From Synechococcus sp. UW69 (lineage in GTDB: Bacteria > Cyanobacteriota > Cyanobacteriia > PCC-6307 > Cyanobiaceae): a stretch of DNA of 64,000 nucleotides. The stretch is from the NCBI RefSeq assembly GCF_900474185.1, contig NZ_UCNW01000011.1, forward strand, positions 1 to 64,000, read 5' to 3'. Of the stretch, positions 24,599-30,141 are shown in pieces (within the stretch, counting starts at the first letter, position 1; every line of letters begins with the position of its first letter). Under the pieces are notes generated by a model. That model made no database searches. It saw only the letters and a list, made by a program, of their open reading frames with translations, and was not told the DNA's origin. A program made the translations under genes and the position numbers.

Positions 24599-25338
24599 GG
24601 GCGATGCAGATCCAAGGGGACAGCCCGGTCGAGCATTGGCTTCCATTCTCCCTCGCTCAACCACATCCAGCACCCCTCAGCCAGATCGCCAAGCGGCAAC
24701 CCCGCAATGACCGTGCGCCGGAGGTCAAGCACCGGATGGCCAAGGACCTCCGCCATCCGGCGAATCTGTCGGTTTCGACCTTCCCGCAGCTCGATCTCCA
24801 ATAACGAGCGCCCGCCCCTGGTCTGCAGTCGGCGCACCTCTGCGGGTCGGGTCGGTCGCCCATCCAAGGGAAAACCCCGACACCAGCGGTCGAGAACCGC
24901 TTCGGACGGCACACCCTCCACCCAAACCCTGTAGGTCTTGGCATGGCTATAGCGCGGGTGGGTGAGTTTCAACGTGAGCTCACCCAGATCGGTCAGCAGC
25001 AGAGCCCCACGACTGTCGGCATCGAGACGGCCAACAGGATGCAGTCCTGCCCGATGCTCCGGTGGCAGCAGGTCGAGCACCGTTCGGCGGCCCTGAGGGT
25101 CATCGCAGCTGCAGATCACCCCCACGGGCTTGTTCAGCAAAAGCACCCTCGCCGCGCCACGGCTGGGCAAGGCCCTGCCATCCACCCGAATCGTCTGCTG
25201 GTGCGGATCGGCCTGGTCCCCAACGCGGGCGACCTGGCCATCCACCGTGATACGTCCCGCCTGAATCCATTCCTCAGCACGGCGCCTGGAACAGAGACCA
25301 GCAGCAGCAATCAGTTTCTGGAGACGCTGACGCGTCAT
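24589..25338 (-). CDS. rRNA pseudouridine synthase, RluB/RsuA family
   Basis: A 249-residue enzyme. An S4 RNA-binding domain (RLQKLIAAAGLCSRRRAEEW) is followed by the catalytic domain with LLNKPVGVICSCDDPQGR and the signature PVGRLDADSRGALLLTDLGE, where the Asp after RL is the nucleophile. The C-terminal EIELREGRNRQIRRM is also typical. RluB modifies 23S rRNA and RsuA 16S rRNA; the sequence alone does not settle which. Its start overlaps phoR by four bases, so it is coupled to the phoBR pair. Confidence 0.9.
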   Translation of the reverse strand: MTRQRLQKLIAAAGLCSRRRAEEWIQAGRITVDGQVARVGDQADPHQQTIRVDGRALPSRGAARVLLLNKPVGVICSCDDPQGRRTVLDLLPPEHRAGLHPVGRLDADSRGALLLTDLGELTLKLTHPRYSHAKTYRVWVEGVPSEAVLDRWCRGFPLDGRPTRPAEVRRLQTRGGRSLLEIELREGRNRQIRRMAEVLGHPVLDLRRTVIAGLPLGDLAEGCWMWLSEGEWKPMLDRAVPLDLHRPCD

Positions 25339-26465
25339 CCAACAGGCTCCCGGGGGAGAAGGAGGTCCATGCAGGCGCCCCCAGCAGGGTGGTTGCGCGC
25401 TTCGATGCGACCACCATGATTCACGGAGATCTGCTGCACGATGGCCAGCCCAAGGCCGCTGCCACTACGGCTGGAGCGTGCCCGCGAGGGATCCCCCCGG
25501 TAGAAGCGTTGAAACATGCGACTGAGATCGGTCTCACTCAACCCGGGGCCGTGATCACGGATGCTGAGCAGCCACCAGCCGCCGCTCTGGCGCACGGTCA
25601 CATCGACGCTGCTGTCCTCTGGGGAGTAACGCAGAGCATTGTCGAGAAGATTCAGCACCGCGCGGTGCAGACGGCGTTGATCCCCAAGCAAGGGCCCGGA
25701 TTCAGAGCGATCCAACTGCAGCGTCACCCGCCGCCCCTCCGCGATCGGGCGAATGGTTCCCCAAGCGCTGTCGACCAGATCCTCCAGGGTGAGAGGGACG
25801 TAATCGCTGTATTCCTGGGGCAGGCTGTTCTCCAGGCGTGAGAGCTCCAGCAGATCCTCCACAAGCAGCTGAAGACGCCGGAGTTCCTTCTGCAGCCGTT
25901 GCACCAGAGCCGTGTCCTCTGAACTCACGGCCAGCTCCAGCCGATCGCTCACCAGCATCAGGGCGGTCAAAGGGGTCTTGAGCTCATGGGCCACATCACT
26001 GACCCAGCGCTCCTGCTGCTGTTGCTGGGCTTCGAGGGACTGGCGGCTCTGGATCAACACCAACAAGCATTCATCGCTGCCCGGCAGAACGATGGCCTCC
26101 AGCGGGTCCCCCTGTTGCTCCCATTCACATCGCTGGGGGCGCTGCTGATAGCGGCTGCTGAAGATCACCTCCTCAAGTGCGGGAATGTCAAGGGCATCCC
26201 TGAGGTTCATGCCACGAACCAGACGATTGCGAGAAATGTGCAGCAAGCGTTCGGCCCGACCGTTGAGATAGGCGATGGAGTGATCCGGAGCCAGGATCAT
26301 CCAGCCCTGGGTGGCCGCATCAATCCAGGCCAGAAGCTGAGGTGCGTTCAAGGCAAAAGGCCGCTCCTCCTCCTCTCGCAACGACTTCAGGAAGCGCCAT
26401 CGTCGCTGCAACAGAAGCGTGATCCCGATGCCGGCCGCAAAGCCAAGTACTCCAGAGATCAACAC
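25335..26465 (-). CDS. phoR: Sensor histidine kinase, PhoR type
   Basis: A 376-residue kinase with one N-terminal membrane helix (ISGVLGFAAGIGITLLL), a PAS-like domain (residues 45-100, ILAPDHSIAYLNGRAERLL), then the H-box SDVAHELKTPL with His160, N-box NLLDNALRYSP and G-boxes DHGPGLSE and SGLGLAIVQQI. This single-helix PAS-kinase layout and the adjacent OmpR-type regulator are those of the phosphate sensor PhoR. The gap to phoB is seven bases. Its stop overlaps the pseudouridine synthase start. PhoR senses phosphate shortage through the Pst system in the known model; no pst gene is in this window. Confidence 0.78.
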   Translation of the reverse strand: MLISGVLGFAAGIGITLLLQRRWRFLKSLREEEERPFALNAPQLLAWIDAATQGWMILAPDHSIAYLNGRAERLLHISRNRLVRGMNLRDALDIPALEEVIFSSRYQQRPQRCEWEQQGDPLEAIVLPGSDECLLVLIQSRQSLEAQQQQQERWVSDVAHELKTPLTALMLVSDRLELAVSSEDTALVQRLQKELRRLQLLVEDLLELSRLENSLPQEYSDYVPLTLEDLVDSAWGTIRPIAEGRRVTLQLDRSESGPLLGDQRRLHRAVLNLLDNALRYSPEDSSVDVTVRQSGGWWLLSIRDHGPGLSETDLSRMFQRFYRGDPSRARSSRSGSGLGLAIVQQISVNHGGRIEARNHPAGGACMDLLLPREPVG

Positions 26466-26472
26466 AACAAGA

Positions 26473-27195
26473 TCAGCCGAAGCGGTAACCGAAGCCGCGG
26501 ACCGTGCGGATCAACTGGGGAGATGAGGGCTCATCTTCAACCTTTTCCCGTAACCAACGGATGTGAACATCCACTGTTTTGGTGTCGCCGACAAAATCAA
26601 CACCCCAGATTTTCTCCAGCAACTGATCGCGACTCCAGACGCGCTTGGGGTTCTGAATGAACAACTCCAGGATTTTGTATTCCTTCGGGGAGAGGGTCAG
26701 ATCAGTGCCATCCCGGGTGACCCGGCACTCATTGGAGAACAGGCAAAGATTGGCGTAATTGTGTGATTCAGAGGGCGACGACTCGGTTTGACGGGATCGC
26801 CGCAGCAACGCCCTGCAGCGGGCCACCAACTCACGTAGCCCAAAGGGTTTGACCAGATAATCATCAGCGCCAACCTCCAGCCCAAGCACCCGATCGGTTT
26901 CACTGTCGCGGGCACTGATTACAAGAATCGGTGTGGTGTTCTTGAAGCGACGAAGCTCGCGACAGAAATCAAGCCCCCCCAGCCCCGGAAGCATCAGATC
27001 AAGAACAATCAAATCAACCGGATCAGAGGATCTGTCCACGACCAGTTCGAGAGCCTCTGAGCCATTTGAGCTGGTGAGCACTTCATAGCCCTCCAACCTC
27101 AAGGCCTCACCAACTGTCTCCCGGATGCTGTCGTCGTCTTCCACCACGAGCAAGCGGCATGTGGAAACCGCCGCAGACAAGGTCGTCACATCCAA
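26473..27195 (-). CDS. phoB: Response regulator, PhoB type
   Basis: A 240-residue OmpR-family regulator. The receiver has the acidic pair VVEDDDS, phosphoacceptor Asp66 in IVLDLMLPG and the lysine in DDYLVKPFG. The winged-helix effector ends with VDVHIRWLREKVEDEPSSP and IRTVRGFGYRF. It lies directly upstream of the PhoR-type kinase. Assignment to phosphate control is from family resemblance and known phoBR pairing in marine Synechococcus. In the 85 bases upstream I cannot pick out a convincing Pho box. Confidence 0.8.
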   Translation of the reverse strand: MDVTTLSAAVSTCRLLVVEDDDSIRETVGEALRLEGYEVLTSSNGSEALELVVDRSSDPVDLIVLDLMLPGLGGLDFCRELRRFKNTTPILVISARDSETDRVLGLEVGADDYLVKPFGLRELVARCRALLRRSRQTESSPSESHNYANLCLFSNECRVTRDGTDLTLSPKEYKILELFIQNPKRVWSRDQLLEKIWGVDFVGDTKTVDVHIRWLREKVEDEPSSPQLIRTVRGFGYRFG

Positions 27196-27741: not shown

Positions 27742-28911
27742 TCAAGGTTCCCAGCTTTGGGAGCCGAGAAAGGTGAGTTCGACAAAGTCGCTGGCGTTGT
27801 GATCGTCCCTCCCCATCTGAATTCGGAAGCCCCCCAGATCAAGATCATTGATTGACTCAAGAGCCTGGACAAGGGATTGACGCGTTGGGTTCTTTCCAGC
27901 CCGTGCCAGCGCCTCGGTGATCATCCGCGCCGCGAGATACCCCTCAAAACTGGTGAAGCCAAAACCCGATGCCTCATCACTCAGCCGCAGGCAGCGCTGA
28001 TAGTCAGCCACAACGGGGATCCAACGATTCCACGGGAACGGCACCACCTGGGCCACGCCGATGCCATTGGCTTCGCCCACCGGCATCGCCCTCTGCAGAG
28101 CTTGGGTGCCCACAAACGACACATTCATGATCTGAGCGCTGCTGCCTCGTTCGCGCAGCGAGGTGGCCAGGGCAGCCGAACTCACATAGGCAGAAACGAG
28201 CACGACTCCGTTGGGATTGACCGCCATAAGGTCGTCCAATGCATCCCCCACCTGAGCTGAATTGCGTTGCACCGTCGTGACCGCCACCGGTTTGAGCCCA
28301 TGGCTGGTGAGGGCAGCCATGGCGCCGTCAAGGCCATCCTGACCAAAGGCGTCGTCTTGATAAACGATCGCAATGCGATGGTGCGCATCACGCACCAGCT
28401 CGTCGACCATCGCCGCAATCTCCCGGCGATAGCTGCTTCGCATGTTGAACACCATGCGCAGCTCCGGCCGTCGAAGCAGACTTGCCCCCGTCATCGGCGC
28501 CACCAGCGGCACCTCCGCAGCCTCGATTAACGGCAACGCCACTTTTGTGGTGGGCGTGCCCACATAACCGAACAACGCCAGCAGATCATTGCGTTTCAAC
28601 AATTGGCGCGTGTTGATCAGCGTCTGCGACGGCTCGTATTTGTCATCAAGACTGACCAACTCGATTCTGCGCCCGTGAATTCCTCCCTCACGGTTCACGG
28701 CCTGAAACCAGGCCATGGCCCCGCGTCGATAATCCAGACCGAGTTGTGCCGAAGGGCCCGAGAGCGGTAGGGACTGGCCAAGCACCAGAGCATTGGGATC
28801 TTGCCCACTGCCAGGGGGCTGAGAAGCAACAGGGCGAGGTTGAAGCAGCGTGAGCAGTCCACTGCTCAGTAAGGCCCAGCACGTCAGAGTGACTCCAGAG
28901 CTGCGCCGCAA
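27742..28911 (-). CDS. Periplasmic binding protein, branched-chain amino-acid/LivJ type
   Basis: A 389-residue exported type-I periplasmic binding protein. After a signal segment (LTCWALLSSGLLTLLQ...) it shows NALVLGQSLPLSGPSAQLGL, then a two-lobed Peripla_BP_6 pattern: WFQAVNREGGIHGRRIELVS, DDKYEPSQTLINTRQLL and HRIAIVYQDDAFGQDGLDG. These bind amino acids or amides for ABC importers or sensors, yet no permease or ATPase gene is nearby. I put the start at a TTG (28911) because GGAGG lies four bases upstream; this makes the gene start exactly beside the ATG of the divergent channel gene. An ATG at 28935 would overlap that gene by 24 bases. Confidence 0.78.
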   Translation of the reverse strand: MRRSSGVTLTCWALLSSGLLTLLQPRPVASQPPGSGQDPNALVLGQSLPLSGPSAQLGLDYRRGAMAWFQAVNREGGIHGRRIELVSLDDKYEPSQTLINTRQLLKRNDLLALFGYVGTPTTKVALPLIEAAEVPLVAPMTGASLLRRPELRMVFNMRSSYRREIAAMVDELVRDAHHRIAIVYQDDAFGQDGLDGAMAALTSHGLKPVAVTTVQRNSAQVGDALDDLMAVNPNGVVLVSAYVSSAALATSLRERGSSAQIMNVSFVGTQALQRAMPVGEANGIGVAQVVPFPWNRWIPVVADYQRCLRLSDEASGFGFTSFEGYLAARMITEALARAGKNPTRQSLVQALESINDLDLGGFRIQMGRDDHNASDFVELTFLGSQSWEP

Positions 28912-30141
28912 ATGGCCTCCAAGAAACAGAAGCACTGGAACTTCCTTGCCGTTGTTTCAATTCTGCTTGCCGGTCTTCTTGCGTTCACCGGCATCAACAG
29001 GCTTGATGTCGGTCGTGTCCCTAGCCGTGATGCGCTGCGCTTGTCATCGGCATCACGAGCCCTGACAACAGACAGTCAACGGATACCCGGGGACGGCTGG
29101 ACCTCCCTGCGGGGCGAAAAGCTGTCGGGCCAGGAGATGGTCCTGGATCAACAGGGGCTGGAGGACGCCTCGTACCACGTTCAGGTGGGGATCTATGCCA
29201 CCAGCACCTACGACCTGGATCTGAGCATCCCCAGTTATTCATCCAACGGTTACGTCTGGATGCGCTGGGGAGAGGAGCTGCAGCGCTATCTGAGTGAACG
29301 GGATCAAACCATTGAACAGGGAATCACCCTGGTGAACGGATTGCTCTCCGATGCCGATCCAGTGCTGACGCCGATGTCCTCAGCCCCAGTGCACAACGAC
29401 GACGGAACGTACTACCAACTGTTCAGCTATATCGGCCGCTTCTACATCGACAAAGCCAGCTTCAGGCACTTTCCCTTTGTGACCGTGAGCCTGCCCCTTG
29501 TCCTTGAAATGGAGGATGTGAATGGTTCCCTCGACTATCCCCATTTCCGCTTCGAGCCCGACATTCAAAACAGCGGAATGGGCCTGTTCGCAGGAATCAT
29601 CGGCTGGCTAAACCGAGGCTGGTCCATTGCCGAATACCGGCATAACTACGCCACCAATTTCGGGCTGGGGGGCAGCGCGGATGACTACAGCCTGGTCATC
29701 TTCGATATCACGTTCGGCACCTCCTCCTGGTCTGCGTTCTGGCGATTGATGCTGCCCCTGCTGGTGGTGATGGCCATGGTTCTTCTCGTGTTCAAAGTCC
29801 GAGCCGATGAACAGGATGCCCGCGCAGGAATTCCTGTCACCGTGCTGTTGACCCTGGTGTTCCTCCAACAGACCTACCGGGAGGAACTGCCCGACCTGCC
29901 CTATCTCACCTTTCTGGATCAGGTCTATGTGATTGCCTATGTGGTCACCCTGCTGGCCTTCATCCTGGTGATCTTCATCGGACGGCGTTACGGAGAGCTG
30001 GAGGCAATGCCGGAAGGCGACGCCAAAACTCGCAAAGAGCATCGGCTGGAGCAACTGGACGAAATCTGGCCGCTCACCGTTGTGGTCTTCAGTTCCGTCA
30101 GCATCTTCGGCTGCTGGATCACGCTGCCGCCAGGGGGTTGA
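28912..30141 (+). CDS. Pentameric ligand-gated ion channel homologue (Cys-loop superfamily, prokaryotic type)
   Basis: A 409-residue protein with an N-terminal helix (11-27), an extracellular beta domain and four C-terminal helices: M1 279-296, M2 305-322, M3 334-357, M4 386-404. Conserved-looking sites are YATSTYDLDLSIPSYSSNGY, a loop region GRFYIDKASFRHFPF, matching the FPFDxQ motif of these channels, and the M2-M3 link ELPDLPYLTFLDQVY, close to the NLPKTPYMTY of GLIC. There is no cysteine pair in the loop, as expected for prokaryotic members. Such channels open a cation or anion pore on ligand binding. It is divergent from, and touches, a binding-protein gene. Ligand and ion selectivity are unknown; I call the family with good confidence from the topology and motifs. 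Confidence 0.8.
   Translation: MASKKQKHWNFLAVVSILLAGLLAFTGINRLDVGRVPSRDALRLSSASRALTTDSQRIPGDGWTSLRGEKLSGQEMVLDQQGLEDASYHVQVGIYATSTYDLDLSIPSYSSNGYVWMRWGEELQRYLSERDQTIEQGITLVNGLLSDADPVLTPMSSAPVHNDDGTYYQLFSYIGRFYIDKASFRHFPFVTVSLPLVLEMEDVNGSLDYPHFRFEPDIQNSGMGLFAGIIGWLNRGWSIAEYRHNYATNFGLGGSADDYSLVIFDITFGTSSWSAFWRLMLPLLVVMAMVLLVFKVRADEQDARAGIPVTVLLTLVFLQQTYREELPDLPYLTFLDQVYVIAYVVTLLAFILVIFIGRRYGELEAMPEGDAKTRKEHRLEQLDEIWPLTVVVFSSVSIFGCWITLPPGG

Follow-up and report, generated by a model that had tools for sequence, protein, structure and literature searches.

A pentameric ligand-gated channel homologue and an orphan periplasmic binding protein in Synechococcus sp. UW69: a candidate two-part receptor

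Why should a homologue of the pentameric ligand-gated ion channels (pLGICs) lie back to back with a periplasmic binding protein (PBP) in a picocyanobacterium? For most prokaryotic pLGICs, to our knowledge, neither the native ligand nor the role is established. The question is raised by a locus in a 64,000-nucleotide stretch of Synechococcus sp. UW69 (contig NZ_UCNW01000011.1, positions 1 to 64,000; hereafter, the window), for which a first-pass annotation had proposed that a channel homologue and a type-I PBP (PBP-I) on the opposite strand form a two-part signalling system. The best reading, in our view, is that the PBP is a detachable sensing subunit of the channel, and we consider it reasonably probable that the two proteins make up a single receptor, in which the PBP would dock through reciprocal sequence tags and control channel opening. 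The features on which the argument turns are the following.

27742–28935, minus strand: type-I PBP of the Peripla_BP_6 family, 397 amino acids from the conserved GTG start at 28935 (a TTG at 28911 would give 389)
27745–27765, minus strand: C-terminal tail of the PBP, GSQSWEP, with its partner-specific W-x-P end
28912–28935: overlap of the two coding starts, 24 nucleotides, head to head
28912–30141, plus strand: pLGIC-type channel subunit, 409 amino acids, with N-terminal helix, linker, extracellular beta-sandwich and four transmembrane (TM) helices
28918–29001, plus strand: N-terminal hydrophobic helix, residues 3–30, signal anchor or signal peptide, preceding the part that aligns with ELIC and GLIC (from model secondary structure and alignments)
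29023–29067, plus strand: conserved SRDxLRLxSxSRALTT segment, residues 38–52, predicted PBP-docking motif, in which R39 and R43 track the presence of the PBP
29122–29724, plus strand: extracellular domain (ECD), residues 71–271, with the invariant pro-loop proline P188
29725–30123, plus strand: M1–M4, model helices 272–295, 301–323, 334–365 and 370–404
within 29725–30123, plus strand: M2 region QDARAGIPVTVLLTLVFLQQ, whose inner end carries acidic residues

The product of 28912–30141 is a pLGIC homologue with the pLGIC subunit fold, as the first-pass annotation had supposed. By phmmer against the PDB it matches ELIC (5.7e-8) and GLIC (7.5e-7) across both the ECD and the TM domain, and a 59-row family profile matches ELIC at 2.2e-18. 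A single-chain AlphaFold2 model from a 59-row alignment (pLDDT 80.9, pTM 0.73) contains a helix at residues 3–30, a short strand at 41–44, a helix at 73–85, a beta-sandwich and then four helices, and its top Foldseek matches, at E 7.2e-18, are GLIC (3eam) and ELIC5 (8twv). The Pfam models to which the first-pass annotation had looked gave less: Neur_chan_memb scored E 2.7e-5 and 25.0 bits, below its 28.1-bit gathering threshold, and Neur_chan_LBD gave no match to the channel protein. The missed threshold is a library cut-off and not a structural feature, and is outweighed by the profile and fold evidence.

Like ELIC and GLIC, to which it is homologous over the ECD and TM domain and similar in fold, the channel has the pro-loop proline (P188, invariant across the 59 alignment rows) and lacks the paired ECD cysteines that mark animal Cys-loop receptors, its sole cysteine lying near the C-terminus. 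It differs from both in its extra N-terminal helix, its conserved RDxLRL linker and its dedicated PBP neighbour. In the profile alignment, the ELIC residue that we take to be the functional loop-B aromatic is not conserved in the window channel's family. Y246 and Y259, which by alignment we take to lie in the loop C region, are at least 90% conserved. The unusual ECD insertions that had been reported at residues 125–165 do not appear in the family profile alignment with ELIC, which shows small gaps only, with ELIC the longer of the two there, and we have dropped them. The subunits would presumably assemble as a pentamer, and the acidic residues that M2 carries at its inner end, in both the PBP-paired and the unpaired channel sequences compared, suggest that the channel conducts cations.

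The divergent gene encodes, again as first annotated, a type-I PBP, which matches Peripla_BP_6 at 5.1e-52 (178 bits against a threshold of 31.7) and whose nearest solved chains by sequence, 4kv7 (6.1e-59) and 3lop (2.2e-52), also lead by fold. Peripla_BP_6 proteins normally serve HAAT importers, and the family points to an amino acid, an amide or a related molecule as the probable ligand class. The genome holds two Peripla_BP_6 proteins, the window PBP and one scoring as UrtA above the cut-off, and two BPD_transp_2 permeases, which score above their cut-offs as UrtC and UrtB; the UrtA, UrtB and UrtC genes are mutual neighbours on contig C9. A BPD_transp_2 search, in which ATPase genes were not sought, found no cognate permease for the window PBP nearby or anywhere in the genome beyond Urt. 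The window PBP is an orphan genome-wide, because UrtB and UrtC, the only such permeases, lie next to a UrtA that belongs with them, and the first-pass remark that no ATP-binding cassette (ABC) permease accompanies the PBP is borne out. While it shares fold and Pfam family with HAAT-type solute-binding proteins (4kv7, 3lop, UrtA, LivJ), it differs from them in this lack of a permease, in its W-x-P C-terminus and in its channel neighbour. Both genes are under purifying selection, with dN/dS of 0.04–0.14 for the channel and for the PBP (seven comparisons each, dS being saturated in several).

How tightly are the two genes joined? The first-pass annotation had started the PBP at 28911, but the TTG at this position is present in only two of the eight genus members that carry the pair, and we rejected it as the conserved start; a GTG at 28935, 24 nucleotides inside the channel gene, is present in all eight. 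Because this GTG is conserved and the PBP frame stays open through the channel ATG in 8/8, the two genes most likely overlap head to head by 24 nucleotides. In that arrangement the promoter of either gene would fall within its neighbour. We scored start register in 43 distinct divergent pairs (26 further pairs were not scorable, and the distance of L058 is spurious, its register being unaffected). The register from channel start to PBP is constant despite varying distance in 32 of the 43, and all eight genus members likewise keep a constant register, a second one; such constancy is expected if the whole interval codes for PBP. In 20 of the 43, all from other genera, a single palindromic CATG can hold both starts. 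Relatives with such shared or overlapping starts include L017, L018 and L023–L028. Three divergent pairs have a real gap between the frames.

The pairing extends well beyond UW69. Within the genus, the channel is found in 8 of 34 genomes, and the same eight carry the PBP back to back with it; in a ninth genome the PBP is cut by a contig end. A 144-amino-acid gene and an ABC1 kinase gene flank the pair in the window, and in all 10 genomes tested of the 26 that lack the channel these two abut directly, so that the pair is gained or lost as a unit within the genus. Across 400 genomes of the family, for which the strongest places were listed and counts are at least those given (the second piece of the G360 gene is omitted), 51 of the 57 listed channel places at 53% identity or more have a PBP of this family next to them in divergent orientation, so that the back-to-back arrangement is indeed conserved in other picocyanobacteria. 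At 35–49% identity (26 listed places: 20, plus six added later, at 36–39% identity and with matches starting after residue 54), two are divergent and six convergent, the latter forming another clade (about 41–43% identity) in which a related PBP lies tail to tail with the channel in six genomes. None of the six added places (G261, G308, G223:C22, G172:C417, G247:C35, G293:C17) has an adjoining PBP of this family, and G363, 243 nucleotides from a PBP owned by another, divergent channel, is not counted as convergent, which leaves six and not seven. Among 388 genomes of the class, a PBP matching this profile at E<=1e-70 occurs in 12, and 10 of those 12 belong to the family. Trees of channel and PBP for 54 pairs (one an artefact) are correlated (r 0.91) and share 29 of 51 splits, with 6 of 36 strong channel splits contradicted.

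Some further observations on these loci may be recorded here. In some genomes two channel/PBP pairs lie within a few kilobases (L047, L055, L132, L142); at L132 and L142 one pair is of the divergent type and the other a tandem with a UrtA-like PBP. Records titled Bifidobacterium breve (L143) and Phycisphaerae (L169) carry a cyanobacterial-type pair at 63–65% identity, and are probably mislabelled or contaminated metagenome-assembled genomes (MAGs). PBP-less channels at about 35–42% identity (L064, L066–L068, L076–L078, L081) follow two recurring genes, one encoding an MFS protein (by a scan of L066 alone), the other a large protein with no Pfam match.

What do PBPs of this family do where no pLGIC adjoins them? 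Of the 13 such loci, G010 and G328:C200 lie at contig ends, and in all 11 readable ones a Bestrophin-like gene (PF14023) lies directly downstream on the same strand (L119–L129, e.g. L119:5546–7509, minus strand; stop codons interrupt the PBP genes of L127 and L128). A direct scan for PF14023 covered four of the 11 (L119, L123, L125, L128), and the others match a profile from the L119 protein. These PBPs are mostly 43–47% identical to the window PBP, with one at 36% and partial matches of up to 53%. The Bestrophin-like partner has no sequence match to solved bestrophins at E<=10, and calling it a channel therefore depends on the name and score of the Pfam model. In two more distant members of the class (G658, G697), the PBP gene is in tandem with one for an sCache-HAMP-PAS-SpoIIE protein, a phosphatase-type receptor (L231:5681–9003, L232:5902–9253).

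Do the proteins themselves carry marks of partnership? After the N-terminal helix, the channel linker carries the SRDxLRLxSxSRALTT segment. We compared 76 deduplicated open reading frames of at least 390 amino acids and at least 300 bits profile score (49 divergent, 6 convergent, 21 PBP-less), and R39 and R43 are both present in 55/55 paired channels versus 1/20 unpaired ones, or 1/18 without two contig-edge cases that lack the motif (L087, L088). L051, at a contig edge and with the motif, was left out of the 20; with all counted the figure is 2/21. Fisher tests give 1e-15 to 7e-17, values inflated by relatedness. On a tree built without the motif region, PBP status changes four times and the motif three times, and the changes coincide except for one apparently recent loss (L050). 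When four PBP-less close channels are compared with 28 paired ones, the share of conserved columns that are broken is highest in the N-terminal segment (3–5 of 12, versus 0–3 of 64 in the TM domain and 2–6 of 59 in the ECD), whereas three paired but more diverged channels, each held out in turn, break 1–2 of 13–14, 3–9 of 65–70 and 1–4 of 60–61, respectively. We also considered a promoter constraint as the cause of the motif and rejected it: R39 and R43 are each encoded by five of the six Arg codons, and the convergent clade retains the motif although its PBP starts elsewhere, which argues that the constraint acts on the protein and not on a PBP promoter.

The reciprocal tag lies at the other protein's C-terminus. 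All 56 complete pLGIC-partnered PBPs end in W-x-P (57/57 under another deduplication), versus none of the 10 Bestrophin-partnered ones with a readable end, which terminate in [FY]I[HN]. These counts omit 3 of 53 divergent-paired rows (L019, L022, L085) and two of the 12 from Bestrophin-partnered PBPs, both belonging to L128, all of them incomplete or broken; the two contig-edge PBPs (G010, G328:C200) terminate in WEP. A tree of the PBPs unites the Bestrophin-partnered ones in a single clade, with which the pLGIC-partnered L063 groups (support 0.89; deep nodes are poorly supported), and since L063 nonetheless ends in W-x-P beside its pLGIC, the tail there follows the partner. Tags on both proteins point to contact between them, with few independent events behind the counts.

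PBP pairing is common but not universal among more distant channels, many clades of this channel family being without a PBP. A survey that kept the best 80 of 120 matches gave pLGICs at about 28–34% identity, and 12 of the 23 kept loci with non-cyanobacterial or unplaced titles have a UrtA-like PBP in tandem, PBP first, in Myxococcota and Gammaproteobacteria (L189, L190, L192, L193, L196, L198, L200, L201, L202, L205, L207, L208). Four cyanobacterial loci (L117, L118, L132, L142) have such a tandem with the channel first. Three of the six UrtA-like PBPs scanned beside distant pLGICs passed the UrtA cut-off, and the channels of L192 and L205 had no Pfam match at E<=0.001. Nine genes near these tandems were scanned and included no ABC genes, two being without any match; at the other 11 loci, the one neighbour scanned at each of 10 was not a PBP, two again being without any match. 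At L184 (4930–6960, plus strand), in a Methylococcus MAG, a pLGIC gene lies directly downstream of a gene for EutC, the ethanolamine ammonia-lyase light chain, a neighbour that hints at an amine ligand.

Taken together, how might the window pair work? We propose that a pLGIC pentamer would sit in the cytoplasmic membrane, while the free periplasmic PBP would capture a small solute, one that probably belongs with the amino acids, amides or their relatives. The PBP would then dock on the channel, with the RDxLRL segment of the channel and the W-x-P tail of the PBP meeting, and the docked PBP would control channel opening. We infer from the sequences the physical binding, the role of the tags as its interface, the class of ligand, the direction of gating and the physiological output. 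The proposal that the PBP serves the channel gains support because the adjacency is conserved in two orientations, the pair is gained and lost as a unit, the motifs track the partner and the PBP is an orphan; of its original form, the PBP start and the ECD insertions have fallen away. The model has the pLGIC subunit fold and the two genes co-occur, so that neither of the outcomes named in the first-pass annotation as refuting it came about.

Several observations weigh against this account. Six of the 57 close-clade places have no adjoining PBP, and beyond one at a contig edge (G247:C155) and one fragment (G348) four are genuine (G281, G195, G183, G079), with no PBP of this family at 1e-30 among the matches listed for them, so a channel can evidently persist without one; at 35–49% identity, 18 of the 26 listed places lack such a PBP. 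The paired sequences are related to one another: the channel contrast goes back to three or four changes of state and the contrast in tails to about one or two, and the deep unpaired clades may have lacked the motif from the outset. The congruence of the two trees can come from co-inheritance alone. Codon use at L42 of the motif is skewed (CTG in 41/48), the tail is of low confidence in the PBP model, and UrtA-like PBPs beside distant pLGICs lack the W-x-P end, which makes the tags at most a feature of this one lineage of PBPs.

Other explanations of the pairing deserve consideration. Perhaps the PBP works in ordinary import, through the permease of urt or of some other ABC system, and lies beside the channel because a common nutrient regulates both and not because the two bind; this would suit the usual HAAT role of its family and the presence of UrtB and UrtC in the genome. 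However, urt owns its UrtA, and such an importer would leave unexplained why the N-terminal channel motif is lost where the PBP is absent, why PBP C-termini are partner-specific and why PBP relatives stand beside a Bestrophin-like gene, and we consider it unlikely. Or perhaps genes that overlap at their 5' ends are simply gained or deleted whole, as a cassette, and stay together without joint function. The 24-nucleotide overlap, the in-register CATG start common to 20 of the 43 scored divergent pairs and the clean empty sites all speak for such linkage, yet the pairing persists in the convergent clade and in the three gapped divergent pairs, UrtA-like/pLGIC tandems occur in other phyla, and the protein-level tags co-vary with partnership; we regard linkage of this kind as distinctly unlikely.

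A third possibility would spare the contact while keeping the cooperation, with the PBP buffering or concentrating a periplasmic ligand that the channel binds, free, in its own orthosteric site. The conserved Y246 and Y259, if rightly assigned to the loop C region, would agree with this, and in Tasneem et al. (2004; PMC549065) PBP and Cache partners were indeed proposed to aid the preliminary concentration or sensing of ligand. The absence of the motif from PBP-less channels and the partner-specific tails point instead to contact, and we judge buffering without docking very unlikely.

The idea of coupling a PBP to a pLGIC is not new. As far as the consulted portion of Tasneem et al. (2004; PMC549065) goes, PBP-I/pLGIC fusions were described in Magnetospirillum and Bradyrhizobium, the stand-alone neighbours given are PBP-II or Cache only, cyanobacterial forms are given a simple architecture, and cooperation of the PBP and Cache partners with the pLGIC was proposed; a role in chemotaxis was also proposed for bacterial pLGICs in 2004. 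The fusions and the PBP-II neighbours were thus already in print. The window pair shares their functional idea and differs from what that portion describes: its PBP-I has a gene of its own, on the opposite strand, and is not fused with the channel into one polypeptide; the arrangement is head to head or, elsewhere, tail to tail; and there are the tags and the Bestrophin-like-partnered paralogues. DeCLIC, as described in the parts of PMC9897478 and PMC12664993 consulted, likewise has a periplasmic accessory module that modulates a pLGIC, but there the N-terminal domains are covalent and calcium is involved, whereas here the PBP is separate. A review of picocyanobacterial solute-binding proteins (PMC8786288) notes, in the portion consulted, orphan urtA genes without ABC subunits in marine Synechococcus, near phage-associated genes and with partners unresolved; the UrtA-like/pLGIC tandems may offer a candidate kind of partner for such genes. 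An open-licence literature search turned up neither a stand-alone PBP-I next to a pLGIC nor any PBP next to PF14023, which does not show absence from print, and in the main text of PMC4795631 the words "periplasmic", "operon" and "PBP" are all absent.

Around the pair, the channel gene overlaps by 23 nucleotides the end of the convergent ABC1-kinase gene (window 30119–30141). On the other side, at 25335–27195, lie genes for a response regulator and a PAS histidine kinase, which we take to be reminiscent of PhoBR.

It is tempting to speculate further, if only tentatively, that binding-protein-dependent channels form a general class. One PBP lineage could be an interchangeable sensing subunit for pLGICs, for Bestrophin-like proteins, which would be channels of an unrelated fold, and, further out, for a Cache-HAMP-SpoIIE receptor; its last residues (W-x-P or [FY]I[HN]) would choose the partner, reading the juxtamembrane RDxLRL on a pLGIC, and UrtA-like PBPs would have been recruited to pLGICs separately, through other contacts and in other phyla.

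If a soluble PBP does gate the channel, its ligand could be found by simple PBP binding assays, and the tag residues make the docking proposal testable by point mutation. For orphan binding proteins, too, the pairing points to a possible kind of partner. Gating through an N-terminal docking segment would, if true, be new for the superfamily as far as is known.

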